The notes beneath the pieces are model-generated. The model made no database searches. It was not told where the DNA came from and saw nothing but the letters and a program-made list of their open reading frames with translations. A DNA stretch of 64,000 bases from an uncultured Eubacterium sp. (lineage in GTDB: Bacteria; Bacillota; Clostridia; Lachnospirales; Lachnospiraceae). Positions 4,961 to 46,328 of the stretch are shown here, one piece after another (the stretch's first letter is position 1; the number at the start of each line of letters is the position of its first letter). The position numbers and the translations under genes are program-made. The DNA is taken from assembly GCA_947089855.1 (NCBI GenBank), contig CAMUML010000007.1:33517-97516 (forward strand), read 5' to 3'.

Positions 4961-5070
4961 GCCCGTCCATTTAAAGTTGCCTAAAGGCAAGGACGGGCTC
5001 ACTCTCGGCACAATTTACCTGTTGGCCCATGCCATGCAGCGAGGTGCATGGCATGGGTGTGAAAAGTAAG
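4961..5070 (+). repeat. GTTACT-family structured element, modules 2 and 3
   Basis: Module 2 has outer helix GCCCGTCC/GGACGGGC (4961-4968, 4991-4998), an 8-nt bulge ATTTAAAG and inner helix TTGCC/GGCAA. Module 3 has a perfect 13-bp helix CCCATGCCATGCA/TGCATGGCATGGG (5026-5038, 5045-5057) around GCGAGG, followed by the end motif TGTGAAAAGTAAG. Module 1 is missing. The layout matches the elements at 12.7, 41.8 and 46.2 kb although the stem sequences differ. Confidence 0.8.
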
Positions 5071-5076
5071 CTGTAA

Positions 5077-5101
5077 ATTGTGGCCTCCCGGACGCCACAA
5101 T
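5077..5101. repeat. short ATTGTGG palindrome
   Basis: This palindrome starts ATTGTGGCCTCCCGG and ends GCCACAAT, and is followed by AACACCCTA and CTGAACGG. The same outer arms and right flank recur at 46064-46158 with a much longer middle, so this copy looks like an internally deleted form. Confidence 0.65.
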
Positions 5102-5144
5102 ATAAAACACCCTATCTGAACGGCTACGCTTCAGTAAATGGCAT

Positions 5145-5215
5145 TGATTCACGGACAGGAATGCGCATAAGCTGCGCATTCCAGAACATGATTCAGGAGT
5201 GAGGGGCGGTTTTGT
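5145..5215 (-). repeat. partial GTTACT-family element, reverse orientation
   Basis: It contains the hairpin GGAATGCGCA/TGCGCATTCC, then GAACATGATTCAGGAGTGAG and GGGCGGTTTTG. These match the copies at 37.3, 41.2 and 46.2 kb, but the GTTACTATTCAC end is degraded. It overlaps the last codons and the stop of the HD-domain gene. Confidence 0.75.
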
Positions 5216-5714
5216 GAAGAAAACTTCCAAACATTTCCGCGCACAGCTTTTGTCCGGCGGCTGTACGAAAAATATGCGTATAGGCGTGGAGGCAGTTTTC
5301 TTTGGAAAGCCCGTCTTCATAAAGGTTTACCAAAAAATCGGCTTCTACCAGGATCTGATAATCGATGCCATCAATATTTGTGTAGGTGTGGTGGTGGCCG
5401 ACCAGATAACTGACCCGTTTCGTGACATCTGGATCATAGCCAAGTGCATCCAGCATTTTTTCTGCTTCTTTTGGGCCAAGCTGTTCCTGCAAGGGGCCGT
5501 CGCACCTTCCATATGCCTGCTCGGCAGGTTTGATGCCAATATCATGTACGATAGCGGCAGTTTCCAGTATATGTTGGGTATTAGGGTCCAGCCCTTCCAG
5601 CCCTCCGATTAGGCTGGCAAACCCATATACTTTTAAAAAGTGCTGGATCCTTGCCGGGTCGCCGGCATAATAAGTGACCATTGCAGTTAATAATTTGTTG
5701 TTGTCTGCTTTCAT
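5193..5714 (-). CDS. HD-domain phosphohydrolase
   Basis: This 173-residue protein has the metal ligands of the HD superfamily in order: His25 (RIQHFLKVYGFA), His57-Asp58 (AIVHDIG), the His107-109 cluster (VGHHHTY), and Asp126 (LVEADF). HD proteins hydrolyse phosphate esters of nucleotides or related compounds. The substrate cannot be read from sequence. Synteny gives no hint, as its neighbours are a TIGR04076-HMA gene and a divergent chemoreceptor-like gene. An AGGAGG site lies 5 nt upstream of the ATG. The last eight codons (LHKTAPHS) and the stop lie inside an intergenic repeat, so the natural C-terminus may have been replaced. Confidence 0.85.
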   Translation of the reverse strand: MKADNNKLLTAMVTYYAGDPARIQHFLKVYGFASLIGGLEGLDPNTQHILETAAIVHDIGIKPAEQAYGRCDGPLQEQLGPKEAEKMLDALGYDPDVTKRVSYLVGHHHTYTNIDGIDYQILVEADFLVNLYEDGLSKENCLHAYTHIFRTAAGQKLCAEMFGSFLHKTAPHS

Positions 5715-6030
5715 TTCAGCCTCCTTTGCCAGATTTCAATAGATTGTCTTTTCAGTGGCAGCGATATGTGGATGTTTCATAGGTTATTATAATAGAAAAA
5801 GGGCTGGGATACAACGCTATAGATTTTTGATAATATTTACGATTTGCCTTTGGCGGTACTTTTCCACAGTACAGTTGATTTCGCCTCCAAAACAGGTTAT
5901 AATATACACGTGGCTGCCGCCAGTTATGGGTTCCAGGCCGCCTGCGCCCTGCATCCTTTCTTTCCAAAGGCATGCCGCCGGGCAGGCATAAGCAAGCAGC
6001 CTATTTCATACAAACAGGGGGATAAATACC
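5715..6030. other. divergent intergenic region, 316 bp
   Basis: This is the region between the HD gene (minus) and the chemoreceptor-like gene (plus). It contains a good promoter at 5875-5903 and then an untranslated leader of about 115 nt. The leader has GC-rich complementary stretches (GGCTGCCGCC, GCATGCCGCCGGGC) but no riboswitch motif I recognise. Confidence 0.5.
5875..5903 (+). promoter_or_regulatory. sigma-A type promoter
   Basis: TTGATT (5875-5880), a 17-bp spacer, and TATAAT (5898-5903). It lies 128 bp upstream of the GTG start of the chemoreceptor-like gene. Confidence 0.65.
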
Positions 6031-6984: not shown

Positions 6985-7126
6985 TTTGCCGGAAAGCGCA
7001 TGGCAAAAACCAACCAGCGGCTTTCAAAAGGCGGCAGCATGGGATTTGGATGGAAAATAACGGGCTGGACGCCGCAATGGAGGCCAGCAGGCAAGTAGAA
7101 AGTATCGTATAGAGGAGGGGAAAGCA

Positions 7127-8110: not shown

Positions 8111-8130
8111 TTTGACAGGAGGACGAGAAC

Positions 8131-12698: not shown

Positions 12699-12873
12699 GT
12701 TACTATTCACAGCCAATTTGCCCTTGACAAATATTCCAAGTTATGAGGCTGTAAATAGTAACATTCGCAGGCTCATGGAAAGAATTTGCCTTGCAAATTG
12801 GAGCCTGCTCACTCCTGAATCAGCTTGGCAGCCACCTGGACAGCGGGGTGTTCAGGTGGCTGTGAATAGTAAC
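12699..12873 (+). repeat. GTTACT-family structured element, complete three-module copy
   Basis: Module 1 (12699-12762) has 16-bp ends starting GTTACTATTCACAGCC and ending with its near-complement. Module 2 (12768-12807) has outer helix CAGGCTC/GAGCCTG, bulge ATGGAAAG and inner helix AATTTGC/GCAAATT. Module 3 (12830-12861) has a 13-bp helix AGCCACCTGGACA/TGTTCAGGTGGCT around GCGGGG, then GTGAATAGTAAC. It ends 32 bp upstream of nadE. Confidence 0.85.
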
Positions 12874-14954: not shown

Positions 14955-15177
14955 TCCAGAAGCGGGGGCTTTCCGGCTATGCCGCTGCGAAATGCAGGAA
15001 CTTCTAAGCATTCTGCGCCAAGGTTAACGTAGCCGGACGAACCGGGGATTGACCCGCCGTCCATGGCGGCAATCCCCTTTTCCGGGCATCCGTGCCCGGA
15101 AATTCTAACAATGACAGAATGCTAAGAAGTTCCAGCATTTCTCCGCAGGCATAGCCGGAAAGCCCCCGTTTCTGCAT
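14955..15177 (+). repeat. long structured palindrome, copy 1
   Basis: Arms of about 60 bp (14955-15014 and 15114-15177) pair almost throughout, including GGGGGCTTTCCGGCTATGCC and its complement and GGAACTTCT/AGAAGTTCC. The centre holds smaller hairpins (GGGGATTG...CAATCCCC and TTCCGGGCA...TGCCCGGAA). The two arms differ at one place (GCTGCGAAATG against TGCGGAGAAATG), which gives the element a direction. Confidence 0.8.
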
Positions 15178-16112: not shown

Positions 16113-16342
16113 GCATCCAGACGCTGGGGCTTTCCGGCTGTACCTGCGGAGAAATGCTGGAACCTCTTAGCATTCTGACTCTGTCAGAATTTCCGGGCAC
16201 GGATGCCCGGAAAAGGGGATTGCCGCCACGGATGGCGGGTCAATCCCCGGTTCGTCCGGCTACGGAAGCCTTGGCACAGAATGCTTAGAGGTTCCAGCAT
16301 TTCGCAGCGGTACAGCCGGAAAGCCCCAGCGTCTGGATGCAG
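16112..16342 (-). repeat. long structured palindrome, copy 2 (inverted relative to copy 1)
   Basis: The arms (about 16112-16178 and 16276-16342) pair along GGGGCTTTCCGGCTGTACC and GGAACCTCT/AGAGGTTCC. The centre is the reverse complement of the centre in copy 1, with only a few changes. Compared with copy 1, the arms carry paired changes (CTATGCC becomes CTGTACC, AACTTCT becomes AACCTCT) that keep the stem intact. Confidence 0.8.
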
Positions 16343-17858: not shown

Positions 17859-17879
17859 AAAAAGCCGCGGCTTGCGGTT

Positions 17880-23196: not shown

Positions 23197-23226
23197 GCCC
23201 TTTGCTGTAAGGCAGAGGGCTTTTTA
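23197..23226 (+). terminator. rho-independent terminator of galKT
   Basis: GCCCTTTGC and GGCAGAGGGC pair around TGTAA, followed by five T at 23221-23225. Confidence 0.75.
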
Positions 23227-25112: not shown

Positions 25113-25172
25113 TATTACTATTCATGGGCCAGGAATGCGCATAAACTGCGCATTCCGTGAGAACATGATTCA
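25113..25172 (-). repeat. partial GTTACT-family element, reverse orientation
   Basis: ATTACTATTCATGGGCC, then the hairpin GGAATGCGCA/TGCGCATTCC and GTGAGAACATGATTCA. Only the module 3 end is present. It lies between the kinase gene and the aldo/keto reductase gene. Confidence 0.75.
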
Positions 25173-31180: not shown

Positions 31181-31870
31181 ATGAAAATCTTATTGGTGGA
31201 AGACGATATGGAGATCAGCGCCATGTTAAAAAAAATTTTAGTATCAGAAAATTATGAAGTCATTACTGCTTCAGATGGGGAAAGCGCCTGTGAAAAGTTC
31301 TTTTCCGATGATTTTAGCCTGGTATTGCTGGACCTGATGATACCGAAAAGGAATGGCATGGAGGTCATGGGAAAAATCAGGGAATCCAATACGGTCCCTA
31401 TTATCATTATATCGGCAAAAGACACGGATTCTGACAAAACCCTGGGCCTTGGGCTGGGGGCGGATGACTATATTACGAAACCGTTTTCCGTTACGGAAGT
31501 GTTGGCGCGTATCAAAGCCAATATCAGAAGGACAACCCAGTATGCTGCGGGAGGTTCCATGCGGCAGCCGGTTCTTACAAAAGGGGCCCTGACAATGGAT
31601 CTGAATGATTATTCCGTAAAAAAGCAGGGAAAAGGGATCGAGCTTACTGCAAAAGAGTTTGAAATCCTAAAATTACTGCTGCAGAATCCAAAGAAGGTAT
31701 ATACAAAGGAACAAATCTACTCCCTTGTATGGAACGACATGTATCTAGGGGATGAAAATGCCGTAAACGTCCATATCAGCAGGCTGAGGACGAAAATAGA
31801 GGACAATCCCCGCAGCCCGAAATACATTATTACCGTATGGGGGATTGGATATAAGGCGGGGGATTTGTAA
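31181..31870 (+). CDS. OmpR-family response regulator
   Basis: This 229-residue protein has a receiver domain (ILLVEDD, Asp51 in VLLDLMIPK, YITKPF) and an OmpR-type winged helix (ELTAKEFEILKLLLQNPKKVYTKEQI, VHISRLRTKIE, WGIGYKAGD). It is the likely partner of the GHKL kinase just upstream. Its target genes are not evident, since the next gene is a bile-salt-hydrolase gene with repeats in between. A long hairpin directly after the stop may end transcription. Confidence 0.94.
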   Translation: MKILLVEDDMEISAMLKKILVSENYEVITASDGESACEKFFSDDFSLVLLDLMIPKRNGMEVMGKIRESNTVPIIIISAKDTDSDKTLGLGLGADDYITKPFSVTEVLARIKANIRRTTQYAAGGSMRQPVLTKGALTMDLNDYSVKKQGKGIELTAKEFEILKLLLQNPKKVYTKEQIYSLVWNDMYLGDENAVNVHISRLRTKIEDNPRSPKYIITVWGIGYKAGDL

Positions 31871-31952
31871 GGAACTGCCGTGAAATAACTTGTGCAGGGT
31901 GCTATCGGAGATTTAGACCAGCAAACTGCACAAGTTATTTTGCGGCAGTTCC
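31871..31952. repeat. 82-bp long hairpin with TTAGGAACTG-type ends
   Basis: Two 26-nt arms starting GGAACTGCCG and running into AAATAACTTGTGCA pair at 24 of 26 positions. They enclose a 30-nt loop. It starts on the first base after the regulator stop codon. Related pieces occur at about 56009-56030 and 63937-63960. Without a T tail, it is a weak terminator at best. Confidence 0.75.
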
Positions 31953-32182
31953 TAACTGTGCAGGTACCAAATAGTTAGGAAGACACGAATGGGATCAAGG
32001 CCTGCCGGAGCCTGCGAATGTTACTATTTACAGCCTCATAACTTAGAATATTTGCCAAGAGCAAATTGGCTGTGAATAGTAACAAGTCCAAACGAAATTA
32101 TCTGCTGCAGCTTTCCAGTTACGACAAGGAATATGCAGGGGGTGGGGTATGATTAGGAAAAATGAAATAGGAGGGATTGCAT
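31953..32182. other. intergenic region before the bile-salt-hydrolase gene
   Basis: Together with the preceding hairpin this forms a 312-bp gap. It holds the 64-bp module 1 repeat listed separately and a flank (CGGAGCCTGCGAAT) matching the junction to module 2 in the copy at 12.7 kb. No gene is seen, and no strong promoter stands out. Confidence 0.5.
32020..32083 (-). repeat. GTTACT-family module 1 only, reverse orientation
   Basis: This is exactly 64 bp, like module 1 at 12699-12762. Its reverse complement differs from that copy at about four positions. The ends are GTTACTATTTACAGCC and GGCTGTGAATAGTAAC, with an inner helix ATTTGC/GCAAAT. Confidence 0.85.
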
Positions 32183-35359: not shown

Positions 35360-37060
35360 TTAATTACAATATTTATATACAATGGCTTCAATATTTCCGG
35401 ATGCAATATCTGCTTCTGTTTCTAGTAGGCTGGAAACAAAATGTTCCATATCTATGAGATTTTCTGTTGTTTGTGCAGATACCCGGTGTTTATGCCATAG
35501 GTCTTTGTGGAGCAAAATCCCCCAGGGTTTCTGTTGGTCTGTAAGGAAACAGATGTGGCTGTTTTCTTGGCTGCTGCCTTTTGAGGCATCTAACATAAAA
35601 TGTATGTTACCGTCTTGGTTATCGATATATTTCCCTCCAGTCAATAGCCAATGGTTGTTTTCCGCAGCTTCATATAATTTTTCACATAATGTTACGTCTG
35701 ATAAATCTTGTGTGCGTACAAACAATAGATAGCTGCTATTAAAATTTTTCTGGGAAGCGTTCCATTCCTGTGCCGTCCATACACGGACTTTTTTTGGATA
35801 CCGTTGTACACATTCCTTTAATAAATACTTTCCTTCGGCTTCCAGCCCAGTATCGATAAATATGATTTCAATTTCCTGTAAGGTCTGGTACAGCAGATTG
35901 GCCATACTTGCCGACATGGTATCGTTGTAGTTTTGGCACAGTGCTATTAGGGTTACTTTTTTATGCAATTCCCCTTCGTTTAAATAATTGTATAATGACA
36001 ATGTATGGTTGGCATCTTGTTCTATAATATGGAATGCGGTGCTTGAGATATGGTATGCATCAAAATATGCTTTTGCTTTTACAAGGGCCTCCTTTCCATA
36101 TTGGCGGATCAAACGGTAGGTGTTCCGGTAGTGTTCGATCAACACAGTAAGGTCCCGGCTCATATCCAGCAGGCCAGTTTCGTTTAAGTTGCCTTCTTCA
36201 TGCATAATATACAATAATTTTTCTATAATTGGAATTTCACCAGAAATATCCGATAATTCAAGGCAAATATCTGGCCGGAGCTCTATCGTTTTATAAAAAA
36301 ACTTTTTCGCAGACAGCACATCCCCATCCGCAATCAATTGTTCCATAGTACGTTTTAATTCCATAGTTTCCGCTTTTTCCCCGATGACGCCAATTTTACC
36401 TTCATAAATGCGGTATTTTCTAGCGGCCGCCCATACATACAGCAGCGATTCAGATAAAAATCCGAAAACCCTTTTTTGGTAGGCATCATACCCGTCAACA
36501 TCCATATGATGCCAGGCTTCATCAAAAATCGAAAACAGCCATGTACAATATTCCTTAAATTTTTCCAATGTTGTGGCCATTAGATTTGCATAACAGCATT
36601 TCGTATCTGCCATTACCTGGCAAAAGGCTGGATAATCGGATGGATATAACTTTTGTATTGCGAGCGCAACAGCCTTTAAATCCTTTTCATTATGGGCAGA
36701 CACAAAATTTACCCAGTTATTATGTTCAGCGCTGAATATAAAGTCTGATAACATAACATCGTGGTCCTTTAACGCTGTTTCATATTCTTTACGGGTCAAA
36801 AATGCCCCTTCCCCATTCAAAAAGTATCTCCTATAATGGCAAATCCCTACAATATCTGCTTGGGTTTCCTGTTTCCAAATCCAATACAAACCGGTCAGTT
36901 CCCCATAATAACAGTTTAAATCCCATATATTGTCCCCACTATCATCGCCAAGATAACCGAAATCCTCACTGGCTGTTGCCTTGCCAACATGCATCGGTAT
37001 ATAAATATCATCCTCCGGCTTGTTAAATTTTTTGTGCGTCATTACATATATCTTTACCAT
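35360..37060 (-). CDS. DUF4422 glycosyltransferase with a C-terminal second domain
   Basis: This is a 566-residue protein. Residues 1-230 match DUF4422, a family of capsule and polysaccharide glycosyltransferases, with KIYVMTHKKFN, IPMHVGKA, YYGELTGLYWIWKQ and VGICHYRRYF. The middle part is helical. Residues from about 375 (KVTLIALCQNYNDTMSASMANLLYQTLQEIEIIFIDTG) resemble the start of a family 2 glycosyltransferase, but no DxD motif is obvious. The gene is clearly AT-richer than its neighbours, which suggests transfer. AAAGAGG precedes the ATG at 37060. No other sugar genes flank it, so the acceptor is unknown. Confidence 0.85.
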   Translation of the reverse strand: MVKIYVMTHKKFNKPEDDIYIPMHVGKATASEDFGYLGDDSGDNIWDLNCYYGELTGLYWIWKQETQADIVGICHYRRYFLNGEGAFLTRKEYETALKDHDVMLSDFIFSAEHNNWVNFVSAHNEKDLKAVALAIQKLYPSDYPAFCQVMADTKCCYANLMATTLEKFKEYCTWLFSIFDEAWHHMDVDGYDAYQKRVFGFLSESLLYVWAAARKYRIYEGKIGVIGEKAETMELKRTMEQLIADGDVLSAKKFFYKTIELRPDICLELSDISGEIPIIEKLLYIMHEEGNLNETGLLDMSRDLTVLIEHYRNTYRLIRQYGKEALVKAKAYFDAYHISSTAFHIIEQDANHTLSLYNYLNEGELHKKVTLIALCQNYNDTMSASMANLLYQTLQEIEIIFIDTGLEAEGKYLLKECVQRYPKKVRVWTAQEWNASQKNFNSSYLLFVRTQDLSDVTLCEKLYEAAENNHWLLTGGKYIDNQDGNIHFMLDASKGSSQENSHICFLTDQQKPWGILLHKDLWHKHRVSAQTTENLIDMEHFVSSLLETEADIASGNIEAIVYKYCN

Positions 37061-37257
37061 TTCTGCCTCTTTCCTTACGTCCGTATTTGTTTTATAACAG
37101 CTTCCCACATAAATTACAGCCTTTTCCTTTTAGAAAACCAATCCCTGCGGTTCCAATAGACTGGCCACCCTGAAAAGAATCTATCATAATTATATTATTT
37201 CAAGGGAATAATGTAAACCTATTTTCCTTGCAGCAGCCACTATCCTAAAAAGCCGTA

Positions 37258-37401
37258 GTTACTATTCACGGCCTGGGGGCCGCTCATAGTAACCATTCGG
37301 GGCGATATGGAAAGTTTGCTTCGCAAAATCGCCCCTCACTCCTGAATCATGTTCTCACGGAATGCGCAGTTTATGCGCATTCCTGGCCCGTGAATAGTAA
37401 C
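37258..37401 (+). repeat. GTTACT-family element, 144-bp three-module copy
   Basis: Starts GTTACTATTCAC and ends GTGAATAGTAAC. Module 1 is a short hairpin CGGCC/GGCCG. Module 2 has outer helix GGGGCGAT/ATCGCCCC, bulge ATGGAAAG and inner helix TTTGC/GCAAA. Module 3 is GGAATGCGCA/TGCGCATTCC. It is the near-identical inverted partner of the element at 41232-41375. Confidence 0.9.
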
Positions 37402-37464
37402 AAGCCGTACCCGTACAGTTGTCAAAAGCTTTCTGGTACGGTTTTAATGGCTGAATTAACTCCA

Positions 37465-37493
37465 TTTACACATCCTCCAAAATCCGCTATAAT
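37465..37493 (+). promoter_or_regulatory. sigma-A type promoter
   Basis: TTTACA (37465-37470), a 17-bp spacer, TATAAT (37488-37493), 43 bp upstream of the response regulator start. Confidence 0.7.
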
Positions 37494-37536
37494 ACCAAAT
37501 ATCCGACAATACTTAAGGAGACAATAAAATACTACT

Positions 37537-38232
37537 ATGCAAAACAAAATATTGATCGTAGAAGACGAACCCGACATCAACAGCCTGTTAGCCAAGATCT
37601 TAAAAGGATATGGCCACCATCCGATACAGGCATACTCCGGGACGGAGGCAGGCCTGCTGCTCAAAAAAGAAGAGCCAGACTTAATCCTGCTTGACCTAAT
37701 GCTGCCTGGCCTTCCAGGCGGGCAGCTCCTTGCACAAATCCGGGAAAACGGCAGCTGTGTGCCGGTCATTATCCTTTCTGCCAAAAATACGCTTGGCGAT
37801 AAAGTCTCTATGCTAACAAACGGTGCAGATGACTATATCACAAAACCATTTGAACCAGAAGAAGTAGCCGCCAGGGTACAGGCTGCATTAAGGCGTAGCG
37901 GCAAAAGCGTACCGGCGGATATGCAGCCAGCGCAGGAAGTGTTGTATTATCAGGGCTTGGAGCTGTATCCAGCACAGCGCAAAGTGGTGCTTGCAGGCAG
38001 GGAACTGGCGCTTACGGCGCATGAGTTTGACATCCTCCACCTGCTGATGCGTACCCCGCAGAAAGTCTATTCCAGGGAAAGGCTGTATGAGCTGGTATGG
38101 CATGGCGGGTATTATGGGGAAAACAATACGGTAAATGTCCATGTCAGCAATATCCGCAAAAAAATAAAAGAGGCAGGCGTTACAGAGGAATATATTAAAA
38201 CTGTCTATGGGATTGGGTTCCAATTAAAATAA
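37537..38232 (+). CDS. OmpR-family response regulator of an ABC-transporter module
   Basis: This 231-residue protein has a receiver domain (ILIVEDEPD, Asp53 in LLDLMLPGLPG, YITKPF) and a winged helix (LTAHEFDILHLLMRTPQKVYSRERL, VHVSNIRKKIK, VYGIGFQLK). The module reads regulator, ABC ATPase, ABC permease, kinase, all on the plus strand. AAGGAG lies about 13 nt before the ATG, a rather long spacing. Three CTTTA motifs at 11-bp intervals just after its stop may be its own binding site in front of the transporter genes. Confidence 0.94.
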   Translation: MQNKILIVEDEPDINSLLAKILKGYGHHPIQAYSGTEAGLLLKKEEPDLILLDLMLPGLPGGQLLAQIRENGSCVPVIILSAKNTLGDKVSMLTNGADDYITKPFEPEEVAARVQAALRRSGKSVPADMQPAQEVLYYQGLELYPAQRKVVLAGRELALTAHEFDILHLLMRTPQKVYSRERLYELVWHGGYYGENNTVNVHVSNIRKKIKEAGVTEEYIKTVYGIGFQLK

Positions 38233-38234
38233 AA

Positions 38235-38290
38235 CTTTATAGCTTCTTTAAAACCTCTTTATGACTTATTAAAAGGAACGGCAGTATCAT
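38235..38290 (+). promoter_or_regulatory. triple 11-bp direct repeat and promoter before the ABC genes
   Basis: CTTTA occurs at 38235, 38246 and 38257, exactly 11 bp apart. The third copy abuts TGACTT (38262-38267), which with a 17-bp spacer and TATCAT (38285-38290) forms a possible promoter. The layout fits binding of an OmpR-type activator next to the -35 box. This is a by-eye prediction. Confidence 0.45.
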
Positions 38291-38416
38291 GGGGGCATCC
38301 GTTGGGGGACAGGGACAGTGTACTCTATATCTGGCATTAAATAATCGCCATCTATATAGTAATAAAGTCTAATTTCTGTCTGGATGGACACTTTGGAAAT
38401 CAGGAGGATGGTAACG

Positions 38417-39340
38417 ATGAATGAATACGTCATAGAGACAATGCAGGCTACAAAATCCTATGGAACGCTCCTTGCGCTTGACCATGTCAATATCCATGTG
38501 AAAAAAGGCATCATCTATGGCCTGGTCGGGGATAACGGCGCGGGAAAAAGCACGCTGTTAAAATTGCTGGCTGGGCAGGTATATGCAACGGAAGGCGGCG
38601 TGCAGCTGTTTGGGCAGTCCCAAGAAGGCCAATTGGAAAAATGCCGCAGGAAGATGGGCTGTATGATAGAAAGCCCGGGGTTCTACCCGAATATGACGGT
38701 AGCACAGATGCTAAAATATTACAGTATCCAAAAAGGGGTGCCTAGTTCCCGGAAAGTACAAGAAATGATGCAGATGGCTGGGATTGTACAAAAGGCTACA
38801 TGCAAGTGCAAGAATCTTTCCTTGGGGCAGAAACAGCGGCTGGGGATTGCAGTTGCAATGATTGGGGAGCCACAGCTTTTAATTTTGGATGAGCCAATCA
38901 ATGGGCTTGACCCTACGGGCATCATTGAATTCCGTGCATTGATGCACCGGCTGAACCAGGAAAAAAATATTACAATATTAATGTCCAGCCATATACTTTC
39001 TGAGCTGGAGCAGCTTGCCGATATGTATGGATTTATGTGCGGCGGCCGTTTGGCAGAGGAAATTACGGCCCGGGCGCTTTTGGAAAAATGCTCCGATTGC
39101 ATTGAAATTATCGTTTCTGATGTTGAGGCATTTGCAGCCAGCCTGGATAAACATTTTCCAAACGAAACATATCAAGTATATCCTGAAAATAAGGTCCGCA
39201 TTACAAAGCCGCAGGCAGAAGCGGAAGTATACAGCAGGCTGGCAGCCGGGGCTGGTACTTATATTACTGGTATGCAGGTTTTAAAAACTTCGCTGGAAGA
39301 TTACTACATGGATTTAAAAGAAAGGGGCAGCCACAGATGA
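38417..39340 (+). CDS. ABC transporter ATP-binding protein (BcrA / lantibiotic-immunity type)
   Basis: This 307-residue ATPase has Walker A VGDNGAGKSTLLK, the shortened signature LSLGQKQRLGIAVAMI, Walker B LLILDEPINGLDPTGI, and the switch ILMSSHILSEL. This pattern (DEPINGLDP, LGQKQR) is typical of BcrA/NukF-type ATPases that export or confer immunity to bacitracin or lantibiotics. The start at 38417 has AGGAGG upstream. Its last codon overlaps the permease start by 4 bp. Control by the flanking two-component pair is inferred from gene order. Confidence 0.94.
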   Translation: MNEYVIETMQATKSYGTLLALDHVNIHVKKGIIYGLVGDNGAGKSTLLKLLAGQVYATEGGVQLFGQSQEGQLEKCRRKMGCMIESPGFYPNMTVAQMLKYYSIQKGVPSSRKVQEMMQMAGIVQKATCKCKNLSLGQKQRLGIAVAMIGEPQLLILDEPINGLDPTGIIEFRALMHRLNQEKNITILMSSHILSELEQLADMYGFMCGGRLAEEITARALLEKCSDCIEIIVSDVEAFAASLDKHFPNETYQVYPENKVRITKPQAEAEVYSRLAAGAGTYITGMQVLKTSLEDYYMDLKERGSHR

Positions 39341-40098
39341 TGAACTATATAAAAAGCGAGTTTTACCGGATTACACATACAAAGGAAATATATGGCGCAA
39401 CGGGCATACTGGTATGCCTGTCCGTACTGTTCCATATCGTCCTCCATTTTTGGGGAGGGCAGTATGCGGTCACTTCCTTTTCCTATAGTTTTTTGGTCAC
39501 GGAACCAATGGTGTTCCCCACGGTAGGGGCAGGGGTTGCATTCAGCCTCTACGAAGGGCACCGGGAAAATGGGATTCTAAAAAATGCAACGGCGTCTGGC
39601 ATTTCAAGGACGAAAATTTTTTCGGGGGAATGTATGGTCAGCATCCTAACGGCAACCATTATGATGTTTGTTGTAGTAGGAGCATGGATTGCGGGGGCGC
39701 AGCTGCTGCTTGGGGAAAAGAAAAGCGGCGTTATATTCCAAATGGAAGAGGTTTTATGGGAAATGACTGCAGCCTATCTCATTTCAGTAGCCAGTGTGGT
39801 TTCTATCATCCTGTTGCTTTGGTTATTGGAACAAAAGCTGACGGCAATCGTTGTCTGGGCAGCAATCTGGTATATTCTGCCGATTGTATTGGAGTATTTG
39901 GGCCTGCGTTTTGAGGCTGCATTCGATATTGTTAACTGGATGCCCTATCATTTCTTTGACAGTATGGTAGTGGGGGACCATGCCGTTACGGTATGGGATA
40001 CTGCCAAAGGCTGGTACAGGTGCCTGGTTTCCGGTGCTGCCGGGACGTTCCTGTTCGTGTGCGCCGGTATCTGCCTGCTGCGGGAAAAAGATTTGTAG
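39337..40098 (+). CDS. ABC-2 type transporter permease
   Basis: This 253-residue membrane protein has about six helices and a short cytoplasmic start MNYIKSEFYRITHTKEIY, typical of lantibiotic-immunity permeases (BcrB/NukE/EpiE-like). It is translationally coupled to the ATPase gene (ATGA overlap), so both form one exporter. The likely role is removal of a peptide antibiotic from the membrane. The substrate is unknown. A D-family repeat separates it from the kinase gene. Confidence 0.85.
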   Translation: MMNYIKSEFYRITHTKEIYGATGILVCLSVLFHIVLHFWGGQYAVTSFSYSFLVTEPMVFPTVGAGVAFSLYEGHRENGILKNATASGISRTKIFSGECMVSILTATIMMFVVVGAWIAGAQLLLGEKKSGVIFQMEEVLWEMTAAYLISVASVVSIILLLWLLEQKLTAIVVWAAIWYILPIVLEYLGLRFEAAFDIVNWMPYHFFDSMVVGDHAVTVWDTAKGWYRCLVSGAAGTFLFVCAGICLLREKDL

Positions 40099-40103
40099 CC
40101 TGG

Positions 40104-40230
40104 AGAGACCGCCAGCCAGGCACTTCCTTGGTTATACTCACCAGCGGTAAAGTTTGCCATATAGCTTGAGGCAGTAATTTATTTTACGGTGTACTAGTAT
40201 CTATTACTGTATATTCTGGCGGTCTGCAGT
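40104..40230. repeat. D-family inverted repeat, long form
   Basis: Outer arms AGACCGCCAG (40105-40114) and CTGGCGGTCT (40216-40225) flank an interior with TATACTCACCAGCGGTAAAG and TTTGCCATATAGC. The arms recur at 60823-60885, and part of the interior recurs inverted at about 55969-56002. It lies between the permease and kinase genes of one module. Confidence 0.75.
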
Positions 40231-40250
40231 ATAGAAAAGGGGAAGATACG

Positions 40251-41213
40251 ATGAAGTACTGCATGTTATTTGCCATATCCTTGCTTGTTGTATTGGCTGG
40301 AGGGTATTTTGCGTTCCGTTACTTTGCCCTTGTTTATGCGCTGCGCCGGATAACTTGCGAAATCGACGATATACGCAAAGACTTGGAGCAAAACCAGATC
40401 GTCCACCTGCCGTTGCCAGACAGGCATCTGGCAGCGTTGTTGTCATCGTTTAATGCAGCGTTGGAAGATATGCAAAAAGAACGCCAAAAATATGTAAAAC
40501 AGGAAAAGGAGTTCCAAAAACAGATAGAAAATATCAGCCATGACCTGCGCACGCCTTTAACCGTTATTTTAGGATATTTAAAATATGCCGTACGGCCAAG
40601 AGGGGGTTATACGGCAGACAGCCAGGAACTTTTGGAAGCCGTAGGCATTGTTGCAAAAAAGGCCGAGTTTATGAAACATCTGGTTGCACAGTTTTATGAC
40701 TATTCCCGCCTACATGCAGGCGATTTTGCACTTGAACTTGGCGCGGTCGATGTCCCGAGGGTTTTAAGGGAGTCGCTTATGGGCAATTACCAGGTATTGG
40801 AGCAGGCACAGCTGGATATTTGTATAGGGATTCCAGAATATCCGATATGGGCAGTCGGCGAAACAGCTGCCCTGGAGCGTATTTTCCTAAACCTGTTCCA
40901 AAATGCAGGCCGATATGCCAGTACTTACCTAAATATTACAGTAGAAGCAAAAGGGAAGGCAGTTGCCGTGGTATTTTGCAATGATACACAGGCGCTTTCC
41001 GAAGAAGACATACCGCATTTATTTGAACGGTTTTATAAGCAGGAACATACAAGGAATAAAGGCGGCACGGGCTTAGGATTAACCATTGCACAAGAGCTGG
41101 CGAAGGGGATGGGGGCGCAGCTGAATGTTACTGCGGTGCGCAAAGGGGAAGGCGGCAGCTGTTTTGAGGTATGTTTTACACTGGATATGAAAGCGGCGTC
41201 TGCGCCCGGCTAG
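40251..41213 (+). CDS. sensor histidine kinase without an extracellular domain
   Basis: This 320-residue kinase has a single clear membrane helix (about 5-28), followed directly by a HAMP-like/coiled linker. The phospho-acceptor is His97 (ENISHDLRTPLTVILGYLKY). The ATPase domain has FLNLFQNAGRYA and GGTGLGLTIAQELAKGMG. With no outer domain, it probably senses through the ABC transporter of its own cassette. GGGGAAG lies upstream of the ATG. An inverted copy of the 144-bp element begins 19 bp after its stop. Confidence 0.93.
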   Translation: MKYCMLFAISLLVVLAGGYFAFRYFALVYALRRITCEIDDIRKDLEQNQIVHLPLPDRHLAALLSSFNAALEDMQKERQKYVKQEKEFQKQIENISHDLRTPLTVILGYLKYAVRPRGGYTADSQELLEAVGIVAKKAEFMKHLVAQFYDYSRLHAGDFALELGAVDVPRVLRESLMGNYQVLEQAQLDICIGIPEYPIWAVGETAALERIFLNLFQNAGRYASTYLNITVEAKGKAVAVVFCNDTQALSEEDIPHLFERFYKQEHTRNKGGTGLGLTIAQELAKGMGAQLNVTAVRKGEGGSCFEVCFTLDMKAASAPG

Positions 41214-41231
41214 TACATCCCGTAACACTTC

Positions 41232-41375
41232 GTTACTATTCACGGGCCAGGAATGCGCATAAACTGCGCATTCCGTGAGAACATGATTCAGGAGTGAGGG
41301 GCGATTTTGCGAAGCAAACTTCCAATATCGCCCCGAATGGTTACTGTGAGCGGCCCCCAGGCCGTGAATAGTAAC
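41232..41375 (-). repeat. GTTACT-family element, 144-bp copy in reverse orientation
   Basis: Its reverse complement matches 37258-37401 apart from a few bases (for example ATTGGAAG against ATGGAAAG in the bulge). With that copy it brackets the regulator-ABC-ABC-kinase cassette as a pair of inverted repeats 3.8 kb apart. Confidence 0.9.
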
Positions 41376-41413
41376 AACACTTCCTACATGGCTATTAAAT
41401 TGCAACGGCGATG

Positions 41414-41442
41414 TTGCAATCTTCCTAAAACTGCTTTATAAT
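41414..41442 (+). promoter_or_regulatory. sigma-A type promoter
   Basis: TTGCAA (41414-41419), a 17-bp spacer, TATAAT (41437-41442), about 97 bp before the rubredoxin start. Confidence 0.7.
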
Positions 41443-41538
41443 AATCCCACTGAGAAACGCGCACTGGCCTTTTGGGATTTTAATCGGACAAGCAGGGCAG
41501 GCGGCAGAATCAGGTGAAACAGGAAGGAGAGAAGAAAA

Positions 41539-41694
41539 ATGAAGTATGTATGTGACGTATGCGGATGGGAATACGATGAAAGCCAGGGCTATCCAGAAGG
41601 CGGGATCGCACCAGGGACGAAATGGGAAGATGTTCCACAAGATTTCAAATGCCCACTTTGCGAGGTAGGAAAAGACCAGTTTTCACAGGCGTAA
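41539..41694 (+). CDS. rubredoxin
   Basis: This 51-residue protein reads MKYVCDVCGWEYDE at the start and FKCPLCEVGKDQF near the end. Both CxxCG/CPLC knuckles that bind the single iron are present (Cys5, Cys8, Cys38, Cys41), as are the conserved aromatic and GTKWEDVP segments. Rubredoxin is a cytosolic one-electron carrier that anaerobes use for oxygen and superoxide detoxification (rubrerythrin, desulfoferrodoxin) and other redox steps. AAGGAGAG lies about 11 nt upstream of the ATG. It has its own promoter and a strong terminator, so it is a single-gene unit. Confidence 0.96.
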   Translation: MKYVCDVCGWEYDESQGYPEGGIAPGTKWEDVPQDFKCPLCEVGKDQFSQA

Positions 41695-41713
41695 AGGGAG
41701 CAAAGCTATGCAT

Positions 41714-41762
41714 GCTGCTGTGCCGGTGCAGGTATTATGCCTGCCGGTGCAGCAGTTTTTTT
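41714..41762 (+). terminator. rho-independent terminator of the rubredoxin gene
   Basis: GCTGCTGTGCCGGTGCAGG pairs imperfectly with CCTGCCGGTGCAGCAG, followed by seven T (41756-41762). Confidence 0.8.
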
Positions 41763-41806
41763 GCGGCTTTTTCCGTAGTACGATACATGTTTGCATCTTT
41801 TTTCAT

Positions 41807-41966
41807 GTTACTTTTCACACCCCAGCCAAAAAGCGGCTGTGCTGTAAAAAGTAACGGCATCCGGCCCATTGGAAGTTCGCCTTTGGCGAAAGGCCGGATG
41901 CATGGCAAGCCGCATTCTTTGGCCCAGACCAAGCAGCGGGTGCTTGGTCTGGGTGTGAAAAGTAAC
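41807..41966 (+). repeat. GTTACT-family element, variant with GTTACTTTTCAC ends
   Basis: Module 1 has inner helix CAGCC/GGCTG between GTTACTTTTCAC and GTAAAAAGTAAC. Module 2 (41857-41901) has outer helix GCATCCGGCC/GGCCGGATGC, bulge CATTGGAAG and inner helix TTCGCC/GGCGAA. Module 3 has the perfect 13-bp helix CCCAGACCAAGCA/TGCTTGGTCTGGG around GCGGG, then TGTGAAAAGTAAC. Stem sequences differ from all other copies while the pairing is kept. Confidence 0.85.
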
Positions 41967-42004
41967 TTTTTCATTCAGAAACCTGTTTTATTTTCCGAGA
42001 TTCC

Positions 42005-42033
42005 TTGAAAGCCAAAGCGTCATACGCTATAAT
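42005..42033 (+). promoter_or_regulatory. sigma-A type promoter
   Basis: TTGAAA (42005-42010), a 17-bp spacer, TATAAT (42028-42033), 94 bp upstream of the hybrid kinase start. Confidence 0.7.
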
Positions 42034-42127
42034 GATACAAGCTGCATTACGGCAAGTGTTGAATACCCGTTTTTTGCAACAGGTTCTTTATCTATAAAAA
42101 TATTGATGGGGGTGGGTAGGGAATAGT

Positions 42128-44698
42128 ATGGTCGAAACGAAAACAACACATTTTTTGACAATCAGCCTTGTACTGGTATCTATCTTTTGTATTCTGATTT
42201 TTAGTATCCAGACAGTTGCTATGAATATGATGGGGGCATCTGCCATCCGGGAGATTGGCGTTATTTATATGTCGGGGATGAGCAAGCAGGTTGCGACGCA
42301 TTTCGGGACGACGATTGAGCTGCGTGTATCCCAGGTAAGGGGGCTGGTGGATGCAGTTCCGCCGGAAAGTATGAAAAGCAATTCTGCGCTGCGGGTGGAA
42401 CTTTCGTATATTGCCCGTTCCAGGGGGTTTGAATGTTTGGCGTTTTATACGGACGACGGCAGGTTTGATATGATATATGGCCCAAAAGTAAAACCGGAAG
42501 TGCCGCAGGCACTTAACCGGGCAATGCAGGTTGGCAAGGAGAGCGTAAGTGCGGCCAGGGATACCGATGGCAAGCAGCTTGTTTTAATGGGGGTGCCTGC
42601 GGTGTATCCATTGGATGGGGGTGAAAAAAGCGCTGCACTGGTAGCAGGGCTTCCAACCAGCTATTTAAGCGATACGCTGGCAGTTAATTTGGACAGCAGC
42701 CTAGTTGAGTACTCTATTATACGCAGGGATGGAACTTATATTTTATGCAGCAGCGGTGCAAAAGGGGAAAACTACTTTGAAAGTATAAAAGACGCCCAGG
42801 ATAAGGACGGCGTGCATCTGGCAAACCGGTATATAGAAGAATTAAAAGCAGCGATGGATGCGGACAGGGATTATGCAGGCGAAGTAGAATTTTCTGGCAG
42901 CCGGCGCAACCTGTACTGTACAGGGCTGCCGGATTCGGAATGGTTTTTGGTTTTGCAGATGCCTTATAATATGCTGGATGTGACCATTGACAGCCTGGGG
43001 AAAAAATGGTCGTTTATTTCCGTTAGTGGCTGTATCCTGATGCTAAGTGCCCTTCTTTTCGTTTTTGCAGGGTATTTCCGCCTGACCAGGAAACAGATGC
43101 ATGAACTGGATGAAGCCAGGCAGTCGGCAGATTTGGCACGGGAACATGCAGAACGTGCAAATAAAGCAAAAAGTGAATTCCTATCGAATATGAGCCATGA
43201 CATCCGTACGCCGATGAATGGTATCATGGGGATGACGACGGTTGCAATCAATAACCTACATAATCCGCCGCAGGTGCGTTCATGCCTAAAACGCATCGGT
43301 GTATCCAGCCGACATCTTCTGGGGCTGATCAATGATATGCTGGATATGTCAAAGATTGAAAGCGGAAGGCTTACGCTGCGTATGGAGCCGCTTTCCTTGC
43401 GGGATGTAATGGAAAATATTATGACCATCATCCAGCCGCAGGTGCATGAAAAAAAGCAGGAATTCAATATTTATGTCTATGGGTTATCAAATGAAAATGT
43501 ATGTTCGGACAGAGTGCGGTTAAGCCAGATTTTATTGAATATCCTAGGAAATGCGGTGAAATTTACACCGGAAAAAGGCAAAATTGAGGTCGGGCTGCGT
43601 GAAAAGCCGTCTCCGAAAGGGAAACGGTATATCCGGTCGAGCCTTTATATTAAGGACAATGGCATCGGTATGTCCCAGGAGTTCCAAAAACGGGTATTTG
43701 ACGCATTTGCAAGGGAAGATCATGGGCGTGTGGAACAGGCTGCCGGAGCAGGTATGGGCATGGCGATTACCAAGTATATCGTAGATGCGATGGGAGGTAC
43801 GATTACGGTAAACAGTGAACCAGGCATAGGCAGCGAATTTTGTATTACGCTGGATATGGAAAAGGCCATGCAGCAGGAGCCTGAGATGGCACTGCCGCAG
43901 CGGGATGTACTGGTATTGGATGATGATGAAAAAGCTTGCGGGATTGCAACAGATATTTTAGCGTCTATTGGCCTGGATGCCGAATATGCCTTAGACCAGC
44001 AAAATGCCAACGAAAAGATCACGCAATTGTATACGGATGCCAAAGGCTATCCAATCGTATTGCTGGACTGGAATATACAAGGGCAGGATGGGATTGGAGT
44101 GGCCAGAAAACTGCGCCAGCGTTATCCAGGTATTACAATTGTACTGCTTTCAGACGGCGACTGGGGCGAATTGGAATCCGAAGCAGAAGAGGCAGGGGTA
44201 GAAGGTTTTATTGCAAAGCCGCTGTTCCGTTCTAGTTTGTATTATGGTTTACGCCAGCTTGTGGAAGCAGAAGTACAGCCAGTACAGGAACAAGAGGAAA
44301 CGGTAGAAATAGATTTATCCGGCAGGCGTGTGCTTTTTGCAGAGGACAATGAACTAAATTGGGAAATTGCCGATGCTACGCTGTCGGAATTTGGGCTGGA
44401 ACTGGACTGGGCGGAAAATGGAAAAGTATGCCTGGAAAAATTTAAGCAGTCGGAAACCGGATGGTACGATGTGGTTTTGATGGACCTTCGGATGCCCGAA
44501 ATGACAGGTTTTGAGGCTGCGGCAGCAATCCGTGCTTTGGAACGGGATGACGCCAAACAGGTCCCGATCATCGCGGTCAGTGCAGATGCATTTGATGACG
44601 ATGTGCAAAAATGCATGGAATGCGGGATGGATGGCCATACATCAAAGCCCTATGACGTGGATGCGATTATTGGCCTTTTAAATAAACATTTGAAATAG
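42128..44698 (+). CDS. membrane-bound hybrid sensor kinase with two receiver domains
   Basis: This is an 856-residue protein. A first membrane helix (about 10-32) and a second (about 297-320) enclose a roughly 260-residue outer domain that looks like a Cache-type sensor. A coiled linker leads to the kinase core with His357 (SNMSHDIRTPMNGIMG) and ATPase motifs (ILLNILGNAVKFTPE, DNGIGMS, GAGMGMAITKYIV). Two receiver domains follow. The first has Asp647 in LLDWNIQG and the second Asp786 in LMDLRMPEMTG. No DNA-binding output is fused. The next gene, 32 bp downstream, encodes a solute-binding lipoprotein, so sugar or nutrient sensing through that protein is likely. Confidence 0.93.
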   Translation: MVETKTTHFLTISLVLVSIFCILIFSIQTVAMNMMGASAIREIGVIYMSGMSKQVATHFGTTIELRVSQVRGLVDAVPPESMKSNSALRVELSYIARSRGFECLAFYTDDGRFDMIYGPKVKPEVPQALNRAMQVGKESVSAARDTDGKQLVLMGVPAVYPLDGGEKSAALVAGLPTSYLSDTLAVNLDSSLVEYSIIRRDGTYILCSSGAKGENYFESIKDAQDKDGVHLANRYIEELKAAMDADRDYAGEVEFSGSRRNLYCTGLPDSEWFLVLQMPYNMLDVTIDSLGKKWSFISVSGCILMLSALLFVFAGYFRLTRKQMHELDEARQSADLAREHAERANKAKSEFLSNMSHDIRTPMNGIMGMTTVAINNLHNPPQVRSCLKRIGVSSRHLLGLINDMLDMSKIESGRLTLRMEPLSLRDVMENIMTIIQPQVHEKKQEFNIYVYGLSNENVCSDRVRLSQILLNILGNAVKFTPEKGKIEVGLREKPSPKGKRYIRSSLYIKDNGIGMSQEFQKRVFDAFAREDHGRVEQAAGAGMGMAITKYIVDAMGGTITVNSEPGIGSEFCITLDMEKAMQQEPEMALPQRDVLVLDDDEKACGIATDILASIGLDAEYALDQQNANEKITQLYTDAKGYPIVLLDWNIQGQDGIGVARKLRQRYPGITIVLLSDGDWGELESEAEEAGVEGFIAKPLFRSSLYYGLRQLVEAEVQPVQEQEETVEIDLSGRRVLFAEDNELNWEIADATLSEFGLELDWAENGKVCLEKFKQSETGWYDVVLMDLRMPEMTGFEAAAAIRALERDDAKQVPIIAVSADAFDDDVQKCMECGMDGHTSKPYDVDAIIGLLNKHLK

Positions 44699-44730
44699 CC
44701 TGGCAACAAGAAAAGGGAAAGGAGGCTGCC

Positions 44731-46032
44731 ATGAAGAGAGTATGCGGTATCATTGTTGCCCTGTTGTCTGTAATGTTTGGGGCCGCTGCATGCAGCGGGA
44801 GGCTGGAAAACGTGGACAATGGTCCAGTAGAAAATATGCAGCAGGAAGTAGAAATTTCCCTTTGGACATTTCCGGTTGGGAACTGGGGAAACCCTACGGC
44901 GGTGGCTAGTTTGCTTACTGGATTTCAAAGGGAGCATCCGGAAATCCATGTTTTTGTGGAATATTTAGACTATGAAGATGGGGATGGGAAAATCAATCAA
45001 GCCATAGCGGACGGCAGCGCCCCGGATTTGGTTTTTGAAGGCCCTGAGCGGCTGGTGGCTGGCTGGGGCGACCAAGGGCGTTTGGTAGACCTGTCGGATC
45101 TGTGGGATACCAGTTGCGCTGGGCAGATTTATGAGAATATCCGGGCCGCATGCCAGCACAAAAATGGTGCATATTATGTGTTCCCAGTCTGTATGTCAGC
45201 CCATTGCATGGCGGTAAACTATGAGCTGTTTCAAAAGGCCGGGGCCCTTTCTTATCTCAATGAAGAAACACATACATGGACGACACAGGATTTTATCAAA
45301 GCGGTCAAAAAACTGTCTGCATATGGGCAGAAGCAGGTAGGTGTGGTTTACTGCAGGAACCAGGGCGGCGACCAAGGCACGCGGGCGCTGGTCAACAATC
45401 TGTACGGAGGTTCTTTTACCGATGCAGGCCATACCCGTTATACCATTAACAGTGGGGAGAATCAAAAAGCACTGCGGCTGCTTTCCCGTTTAGAAGGCAT
45501 TTCGTTTGATGATTCTATGGTAGGGAGCGATGAGATCAAAGCTTTTTGCAGTGGGGAATTGGCAATGGCATTTTGTTGGAATGCTGCGATAGAGATACAG
45601 CAGACTATCCATAACCCGAATTTGGATTTTGACGTGTTCCCAATGGCGTTTCCGACCGATTCTGGAGAACCAAGGCTGCAGGGCGGCATTTATGGGTTTG
45701 GCATTTTTGATAATGGCAGCCGTGAACGGATAGAAGCGGCAAAGGCACTTATCCGGTATATGACGGAATCGGATACAAAATATGAAAGTGTTGTGCAGAT
45801 GTCGTCAAACTGGCCGGTGCGGGATATAGGCGAGGTTTATGAAAATGACCAGTTAATGACAGAATACAGCATATTTATGCCTTATGTAGATGATTATTAC
45901 CAGATTACACCTGGCTGGACAAACGCGCGCATGGCCTGGTGGCAGATGCTGCAAAAAATCGGCAGTGGTGAAGATATAGCAGCCGCGACCAAAGCGTTTT
46001 CCAAGCAGGTAGAAGCCACTCATACAACATGA
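44731..46032 (+). CDS. extracellular solute-binding lipoprotein (family 1, sugar type)
   Basis: This 433-residue exported protein has a lipoprotein signal peptide (MKRVCGIIVALLSVMFGAAAC; lipidation cysteine about residue 21). The mature part resembles carbohydrate-binding proteins of ABC importers, with SLWTFPVGNWGNPTAVASLL, FQREHPEIHVFVEYLDYEDGDGKI, APDLVFEGPERLVAGW, and a late FSKQVEAT. No importer permease or ATPase genes accompany it. It lies directly after the hybrid kinase gene, so it may act as the outer sensory partner of the kinase and not as a transport protein. AAAGGAGG precedes the ATG. Confidence 0.9.
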   Translation: MKRVCGIIVALLSVMFGAAACSGRLENVDNGPVENMQQEVEISLWTFPVGNWGNPTAVASLLTGFQREHPEIHVFVEYLDYEDGDGKINQAIADGSAPDLVFEGPERLVAGWGDQGRLVDLSDLWDTSCAGQIYENIRAACQHKNGAYYVFPVCMSAHCMAVNYELFQKAGALSYLNEETHTWTTQDFIKAVKKLSAYGQKQVGVVYCRNQGGDQGTRALVNNLYGGSFTDAGHTRYTINSGENQKALRLLSRLEGISFDDSMVGSDEIKAFCSGELAMAFCWNAAIEIQQTIHNPNLDFDVFPMAFPTDSGEPRLQGGIYGFGIFDNGSRERIEAAKALIRYMTESDTKYESVVQMSSNWPVRDIGEVYENDQLMTEYSIFMPYVDDYYQITPGWTNARMAWWQMLQKIGSGEDIAAATKAFSKQVEATHTT

Positions 46033-46063
46033 CCCGGAAAATGCCTAACCAGGAACGCTGTTA

Positions 46064-46158
46064 ATTGTGGCCTCCCGGATGCTTAGGGCTTCTTACATTC
46101 CGGAACCGGAACAATGGGACAGGGCCGCCCCCTCATCCGGCGTCCGGGAGGCCACAAT
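46064..46158. repeat. 95-bp ATTGTGG palindrome, long form
   Basis: The outer arms start ATTGTGGCCTCCCGG and end CCGGGAGGCCACAAT. The interior has GTTCCGG-like smaller inverted repeats. The right flank (AACACCCTACCTGAACGG) matches the flank of the short copy at 5077-5101. Confidence 0.75.
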
Positions 46159-46180
46159 GTAACACCCTACCTGAACGGTA

Positions 46181-46328
46181 GTTACTATTCACGGCCTGGG
46201 GGGGGGCCGCTCATAGTAACCTTTCGGGGCGATATTGGAAGTTTGCTTCGCAAAATCGCCCCTCACTCCTGAATCATGTTCTCACGGAATGCGCAGTTTA
46301 TGCGCATTCCTGGCCCGTGAATAGTAAC
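46181..46328 (+). repeat. GTTACT-family element, 148-bp three-module copy
   Basis: Same sequence family and orientation as 37258-37401. Module 1 has a run of nine G where other copies have five. Module 2 (46226-46262) keeps GGGGCGAT/ATCGCCCC with bulge ATTGGAAG. It ends GTGAATAGTAAC at 46317-46328. Confidence 0.9.

Follow-up and report, generated by a model that had tools for sequence, protein, structure and literature searches.

A superfamily of non-autonomous mini-transposons in Lachnospiraceae with a covarying hairpin core and a likely IS66-type partner

Elements in the 64-kb window

The window analysed here, 64,000 nucleotides (nt) of contig CAMUML010000007.1 from an uncultured Eubacterium sp. 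of the family Lachnospiraceae (assembly GCA_947089855.1), contains five complete copies of a short repeated element, each lying between GTTACTWTTCAC and the reverse complement of GTTACTWTTCAC, along with several partial copies (Table 1). A first-pass annotation of this DNA had described a three-module layout at six places, which was borne out by reading and folding at 12699, 37258, 41232 (reverse), 41807 and 46181, whereas at 4961 both the 5' end and module 1 are missing, so that module 2 comes first in this copy, and the 3' end reads GTGAAAAGTAAG. The partial copies at 5151, 25115, 32020 and 63980 had been missed. With at most one mismatch allowed, the end pattern matched the window 17 times, compared with 0.62 expected matches, and a count of 17 was reached in none of 100 shuffles. 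Wider searches were performed with two covariance models, of which R1 was built from 7 sequences and R2 is a wider model.

The order of parts is common to all subfamilies read. Together, the elements make up a Lachnospiraceae superfamily of mini-transposons that are non-autonomous, a complete, insert-free element spanning about 130–175 base pairs (bp). Module 1 is a hairpin made up of the 5' inverted end and an inner reversed copy of the same end. Module 2 comprises a stem of 8–12 bp that is free in sequence, a one-sided bulge of 7–8 nt reading ATNNRAAR, and an inner stem topped by a short loop, mostly a triloop; the conservation of the bulge letters is partly built in, as the parsers required a start with AT (in the 88-row set described below also GT) and one of four dinucleotides at positions 6–7. 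Module 3 has a further free-sequence stem, with CA...TG as its closing bases, and a loop that is mostly GYNNR; the 3' inverted end follows. In other genera, the linker between modules 2 and 3 is frequently CTGAATCA...TTCTTACG, as at loci L272, L279, L280 and L282.

The module-3 stem sequences quoted in the first-pass annotation were reproduced, except that the stem at 12699 contains one G-T pair; in addition, the loop of the copy at 41807, GCGGG, is shorter by one base than the GCGRGG given there. As the copies at 37258, 41232 and 46181 are near-identical members of a single subfamily, only four different module-3 stems are present in the window.

Table 1. Copies of the element in the window, with their parts and the supporting evidence.
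Feature	Coordinates	Strand	Parts	Duplication or evidence
Truncated element, degenerate 3' end	4961..5070	+	module 2 4961-4998; module 3 5026-5057; 3' end 5059-5070	R1 match 62.9 bits; fold
Subfamily-A fragment, decayed	5151..5230	-	module 3, linker, part of module 2	repeat search
Subfamily B, complete, 175 bp	12699..12873	+	module 1 12699-12762; module 2 12767-12808; module 3 12829-12861; 3' end 12862-12873	8-bp duplication CCAGCCAT
Subfamily-A fragment	25115..25172	-	3' end, module 3, part of linker	repeat search
Subfamily-B module 1, truncated copy	32020..32083	-	module-2 stump 32008-32019	inverted-repeat search
Subfamily A, complete, 144 bp	37258..37401	+	module 1 37258-37293; module 2 37299-37335; module 3 37359-37383; 3' end 37390-37401	8-bp duplication AAGCCGTA
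Subfamily A, complete, reverse	41232..41375	-	module 3 41250-41274; module 2 41298-41334; module 1 41340-41375	8-bp duplication AACACTTC
Subfamily C, complete, 160 bp	41807..41966	+	module 1 41807-41855; module 2 41856-41901; module 3 41923-41953; 3' end 41955-41966	8-bp duplication TTTTTCAT
Subfamily A, complete, 148 bp	46181..46328	+	module 1 46181-46220; module 2 46226-46262; module 3 46286-46310; 3' end 46317-46328	imperfect duplication GAACGGTA/GAAGGTAA
Start of a further copy, cut by the window end	63980..64000	-		end-pattern scan

Transposon character

The exact end GTTACTWTTCAC occurs 309 times (155 + 154) in the genome of origin, compared with 1 + 0 for a reversed-pattern control, which implies roughly 150 copies. 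Complete copies mostly measure 132–175 bp, and a few that carry inserts reach 206–266 bp. For the analysis of target duplications, 90 of 119 matches were kept, namely those whose second end had at most three mismatches, lay inside the locus and had not already been counted. A perfect 8-bp duplication flanks 48 of these two-ended copies and one with a single mismatch a further 23, against 0.5 and 0.4, respectively, for shuffled flanks. Flank matches of 7 bp were found once and those of 5, 6, 9, 10 or 11 bp never. At L015, a subfamily-A element is nested within a subfamily-B element and has its own duplication, TTGACAAA, and a viral contig from IMG/VR carries one copy with the 8-bp duplication CTTAAAAG and yet another stem pair. 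A chance origin of the repeats is ruled out by the end counts relative to the shuffles and the reversed control, as well as by the duplication control.

The inverted ends, the 8-bp duplications, the nested insertion and the IS66-type partners described below identify the elements as transposons, a character that had been overlooked in the first-pass annotation. They are short, multi-copy and gene-less, possess terminal inverted repeats and target-site duplications, and have ends in common with an autonomous transposon, as is the case for miniature inverted-repeat transposable elements (MITEs). Judged from these sequence features, they very likely constitute a MITE superfamily with an IS66-type partner.

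IS66-type partner

The partner was found via distant end pairs in congeneric genomes. At L051 (genome G005), GTTACTTTTCACACCCACGCCAGA and its near-perfect inverse flank an open frame of 585 residues (P0001), which matches the Pfam family DDE_Tnp_IS66 with an E-value of 5.4e-11 and 42.9 bits (cut-off 23.1). Between the left end and this transposase gene, at ~920–1130 of L051, there is a small frame, ~70 codons long, whose product looks by eye like a coiled coil. A scan of named genomes yielded 24 relatives, of which 20 were examined for ends. Inverted ends of the MITE type, with at most 3 mismatches in 24, were present in 12 of these 20 (L154–L157, L159, L161, L162, L164, L167, L171, L172 and L173). 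Perfect 8-bp duplications flank the IS66-type elements at L159, L161 and L162, and a 7-bp duplication the one at L154, which is identical with L051; at L173, the left flank is missing. Within the first 12 bases, the IS66-type elements vary in the same manner as the MITEs, their ends reading GTTACNNTTCA[CG], and transposase remnants adjoin such ends in G007, G008 and G010. From these sequences, we infer that an IS66-type transposase of this kind moves the MITE in trans.

Two further end pairs were inspected as candidate partners and rejected. In the genome of origin, no autonomous element is visible at the C11 pair 1 kb apart (L031), whose right end closes an ordinary 144-bp copy, and the pair 2.4 kb apart in G009 (L101) encloses no IS66-like frame among those of at least 120 residues. 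At L159, the IS66-type element (2505–4808) starts 7 bases past the 3' end of a MITE at 2390–2497.

An 8-bp target duplication is typical of the IS66 family. The partner resembles classic members in its DDE_Tnp_IS66 transposase and in the 8-bp duplication of some copies. According to PMC12888890, IS66 members of Pseudomonas have ends of the form GTAAGCG... and three genes, tnpA, tnpB and the transposase gene. As the ends of the partner begin with GTTAC and not with GTAAGC, it is termed IS66-type on the basis of its transposase rather than its ends.

Covariation of the hairpin core

Alignments were anchored on the bulge and the loop and were complemented by model alignments. The fold set comprised 91 of 107 model matches, the 16 left out being 15 antisense matches that were weaker and a separate weak one (L217:56-121). 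The parser set comprised 109 distinct copies, of which eight were dropped (five at module 2 and three at module 3); merging of identical rows among the 101 kept resulted in 88 rows. For a larger set of 108 rows, five of 28 wider matches were left out by hand (L278 and L294, wrongly placed at a contig edge, as well as L281, L284 and L285, which lack clear ends), L307 was added, and L273, L274 and L292 were lost at parsing. L278 and L294 showed the core on rereading, the former with a decayed 3' end, and stayed outside the 108-row set.

Among 32 representatives, 94.6% of 979 cells pair, compared with 67.2% after shuffling. Changes on both sides of a pair are found in 249 cells, against 62.8 in shuffled data and a value reached in none of 500 shuffles, and this signal was lost when the partner columns were slid by one to three positions. 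The covariation test that the first-pass annotation had proposed was performed with our own script, which follows R-scape in using a null model based on a tree but is not R-scape proper. It returned 7 significant column pairs for the 88 rows, all among the 28 predicted pairs, and 20 for the 108 rows, of which 19 are predicted and one is adjacent to a predicted pair; these pairs are thus significant beyond phylogeny. Because alignments fitted to bulge, loop and pairing lean towards structure, a control was made in which arms were swapped between elements with different stems (12 distinct stems each), whereupon 3.1 and 3.5 of 8 positions paired, compared with 7.4 and 7.6 for an element's own arms. 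This control and the tree-based null rule out copying alone. Along with the excess of double changes and the lack of an Rfam match over threshold on the elements searched, they support the view, put forward in the first-pass annotation, that the fold is under selection and does not reflect simple copying. Base pairs that covary, as expected of a structured RNA, are present in the core.

Selection in spreading lineages and level of the fold

Mapped onto the 88-row tree, broken and doubly changed pairs numbered 86.0 and 20.3 on the tips, and 14.6 and 56.6 on internal branches. The 108-row tree gave 94.0 and 55.2 on the tips, and 21.0 and 96.5 on internal branches, for total branch lengths of 6.36 (tips) and 6.48 (internal) and with a Fisher p of 7e-14, computed on rounded counts of events that are not independent. 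Broken pairs thus fall mostly on the tips: lineages that spread retain their pairing, whereas it decays once copies are resident. The hairpin core is accordingly likely to be under selection in the copies that spread, as far as can be read from the sequences.

Changes from a Watson-Crick pair to G-T (37.0 events) did not exceed those to A-C (43.5 events) in the 108-row tree. Likewise, in the 32 representatives and with the outermost module-2 pair omitted, G-T occupied 6 and A-C 5 of 812 cells, so the tolerance of G-U on a transcribed strand that a structured RNA should display was not observed. In a transfer RNA (tRNA) control, 17 of 326 pairs from 15 tRNAs were G-T. RNase P class B had also been tried as an RNA control, with 0 of 31 over the cut-off, and tRNA was used in its place. 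Where both neighbouring genes run in the same direction, six elements share their orientation and five oppose it (five and four, respectively, without two doubly listed rows), which is a small sample. The 22 scored neighbour pairs included nine divergent and two convergent sites, numbers that do not change when the doubly listed rows are removed, and 24 of 32 sampled rows were intergenic by crude calls of open reading frames (22 of 30 without the doubly listed L015 and L301).

As G-T is no commoner than A-C and rarer than in tRNA, and as no clear preference in orientation is seen, a strand-blind requirement at the DNA level is favoured over selection on a transcript. The first-pass annotation had allowed for a fold in RNA or in single-stranded DNA. 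Of these, RNA is disfavoured by the G-T counts, the orientations and the decay of resident copies, and selection would more likely act on DNA.

Distribution across genomes

The covariance-model search of the genome and of Lachnospiraceae, also suggested by the first-pass annotation, retrieved the core well beyond the window. Only part of the first-look candidates was scored (150, 25 and 11 per genome at the level of genus, family and class, respectively), so copy counts are lower bounds. Within the genus, R1 detected the core in 12 of 13 genomes at an E-value of at most 0.001; across the family, it did so in 19 of 150 genomes that each represent a different genus, our own included. The stems differ, and bulge and loop are the same. 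Loci were read from all 18 other genomes. In 14 of them (G014, G015, G025, G074, G093, G103, G114, G128, G146, G147, G166, G175, G182 and G183), the core lies between recognisable ends; in G127, it is clear and the 3' end has decayed, and no clear ends surround it at the loci read from G135, G142 and G144. Applied class-wide with strict filters, R2 matched 4 of 341 genomes, all from the same family and including our own, absence being weak evidence in this search.

The end pattern was present in 27 of 61 genomes, again counting our own, and high counts were confined to the genus (140 in G009, 76 in G007, 39 in G012, 25 in G001 and 21 in G008), in which several members also have just 1 to 4. 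Outside the genus, there were at most five per genome, which is near the control.

Comparison with known systems

No Rfam family scored over threshold on the window elements, none was found in 36900–42200 at E-values up to 1, and none exceeded its family threshold on the loci with related copies (9 + 9). The comparison with Rfam recommended in the first-pass annotation is in keeping with its statement that no known family could be matched. The notable likeness, below threshold, was to TD-2 (RF03162) at L265 (326–425, minus strand), where a match across two tandem copies reached 42.1 bits, against a gathering score of 48.7, and shares the succession of hairpin, spacer, hairpin and end-hairpin. 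TD-2 was over threshold in 0 of 13 genomes, and a literature search on it returned nothing. Whether TD-2 loci have transposon ends of their own may be worth examining.

Folded DNA is recognised in integron attC sites, IS200/IS605 elements and repetitive extragenic palindromic (REP) hairpins, in which the stem letters are arbitrary and the unpaired bases fixed. These systems rely on a tyrosine recombinase or an HUH enzyme, act on one strand and are not known to create 8-bp duplications, whereas the ends and duplications found here agree with a DDE transposase, and neither strand was seen to be preferred. Pneumococcal BOX, RUP and SPRITE are small MITE-like repeats with stem-loops, BOX being modular, and we know of no family-wide covarying core with changing stems in any of them. 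Compared by description, they share with the present elements the small size, the MITE-like nature and the stem-loops. BOX and SPRITE motifs are treated in a review of MITEs (PMC10969869), the available text of which does not mention IS66.

The interspersed repeats of Bacillus cereus, including bcr1, are mobile and 100–400 bp long, and according to PMC6542083 this mobility is linked to the motif TTTAT and perhaps to a mechanism that is site-specific; bcr1 was also assigned a conserved-structure score in a stem-loop survey (PMC2267715). Our elements are likewise short, mobile and interspersed but differ in their 8-bp duplications, which vary in sequence and are not of a TTTAT motif, and in their IS66-type ends. 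With MITEs mobilised in trans by insertion sequences (IS), they have in common that they are short, non-coding and multi-copy, share ends with an autonomous element and give rise to a duplication of fixed length. They differ in that modules 2 and 3 covary, are common to several genera and did not appear at any of the IS ends inspected. An unrelated 161-bp MITE with a 4-bp repeat occurs beside an IS66 element in Pseudomonas, as reported in PMC12888890. We came across no MITE with such a core in the available portions of the literature searched.

Additional features

A second palindromic insert, with ends CAATGTCATTWACTTAAG, lies within subfamily-A elements of the genome of origin at L019 (1501–1766) and L032 (505–770). 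It sits between copies of ATTCACGGG (9 bp), similar pieces are present in L097 and L103, and it is apparently another mini-transposon family. A third palindromic insert, bounded by TAGTACACCGTAAAATAAATAACTGG and its inverse, is found within a subfamily-A element at L005 (1207–1512). In the window, a long hairpin with 37-nt arms that are 86% complementary occupies 31867–31956, a short way upstream of the truncated subfamily-B copy (32020), and pieces with CAGTTCCT recur near 23225 and 63950. Two TwoAYGGAY RNAs (RF01731) are located at 14982–15148 on the minus strand (108.8 bits) and at 16144–16310 on the plus strand (101.5 bits), within a 259-bp inverted repeat whose arms are 89% complementary and 903 bp apart.

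Discussion

The explanation that we consider probable, on the strength of the sequence comparisons, is that of a MITE mobilised by an IS66-type transposase, the spread of which requires DNA-level pairing in modules 2 and 3. The transposase would move the mini-element in trans, and copies that propagate would need pairing within both modules, on neither strand in particular. The likeliest role of a cruciform or hairpin fold would be to shorten and kink the ~150-bp core and so bring the two ends together, with the conserved bulge and loop possibly providing the points at which the transposase complex or a host protein makes contact. In a resident copy, the fold would no longer be needed after insertion and could decay. 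More generally, we infer that the fold brings together or marks the ends for transposition. By analogy with attC and integrases, two free-sequence hairpins with fixed unpaired letters might be read as a shape, either a cruciform or extruded hairpins, by classical DDE machinery, an idea that we put forward tentatively and regard as possible rather than probable.

Several observations weigh against this explanation. Seven of the 12 end-bearing IS (L155–L157, L164, L167, L171 and L172) have no 8-bp duplication, and the genome of origin, a draft that is 89.7% complete, yields IS66 transposase fragments only, so that the mover of its ~150 copies was not found there. In folds judged by eye, none of 18 ends of nine autonomous IS showed module 2 or 3, which means that the transposase moves its own element without them; some of these ends carry hairpins of their own, and R1 gave weak matches only at several IS ends (13–23 bits, best E-value 0.0015). 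Short copies with their own 8-bp duplication also occur, either as module 1 alone (L036, L040 and L054) or with internal deletions (L109 and L110), and could mean that modules 2 and 3 are dispensable. These copies may instead be later deletions, as the inner end is repeated in direct orientation at the 3' end and deletion between the two can leave a lone module 1. Finally, the parsimony reconstruction included a small penalty on the unpaired state and thus slightly favoured paired ancestors, leaning towards the contrast between internal branches and tips, and the tRNA control was small and pre-filtered by ARAGORN, which rejects bad pairs.

A structured non-coding RNA, such as a regulator, terminator or processing site, could alternatively ride on the IS66-type MITE, selection then acting on the transcript. 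Stable folds, the strong covariation, the conserved bulge and loop and the recurring linkers would all suit such an RNA, and MITEs typically give transcripts with stable stem-loops, according to the review PMC10969869. We nevertheless deem it unlikely, since G-T is not above A-C and lies below the tRNA level, no orientation is clearly preferred, resident copies lose their pairing and no Rfam family was over threshold on the elements searched.

Somewhat less likely still is an unselected fold, in which template switching (quasi-palindrome correction) copies the arms onto each other, so that the letters drift and the pairing stays. The bulge of L210:13-132 (minus strand) has been filled in to leave a perfect palindrome, just as correction would produce, and double changes are common (about 77). 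However, correction should also mend resident copies, yet 94 pairs are broken on tips and 21 on internal branches of similar total length. It would furthermore erase the bulge, but five of 109 distinct copies failed at module 2, a count that is partly built in as the parser looks for a bulge, and only L210:13 did so through bulge filling. Template switching may still supply double changes that selection then keeps. That the hairpins render insertions harmless, for example as two-way insulators, so that a copy stands a better chance of surviving insertion when its hairpins are intact, is very improbable: it would account for the intact young copies and agrees with the intergenic position of most rows in the crude calls given above, but should operate via RNA and hence tolerate G-T pairs, and the few convergent (2/22) and many divergent (9/22) sites are unlike terminator use.

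The preferred reading, a MITE whose spread depends on the folding of its DNA, bears on how such elements are viewed, since the core of a MITE is often regarded as passive filler that separates its ends. Here, the stem letters turn over in a core common to several genera, but both the pairing and the unpaired letters are retained. In practical terms, the covariance model can be used to annotate a repeat that is present at some 150 places in one genome and on which no Rfam family was over threshold in our searches. If the reading is true, the natural stem variants would amount to a ready-made mutational scan, and DNA shape would be a selected trait of a DDE-transposon derivative.

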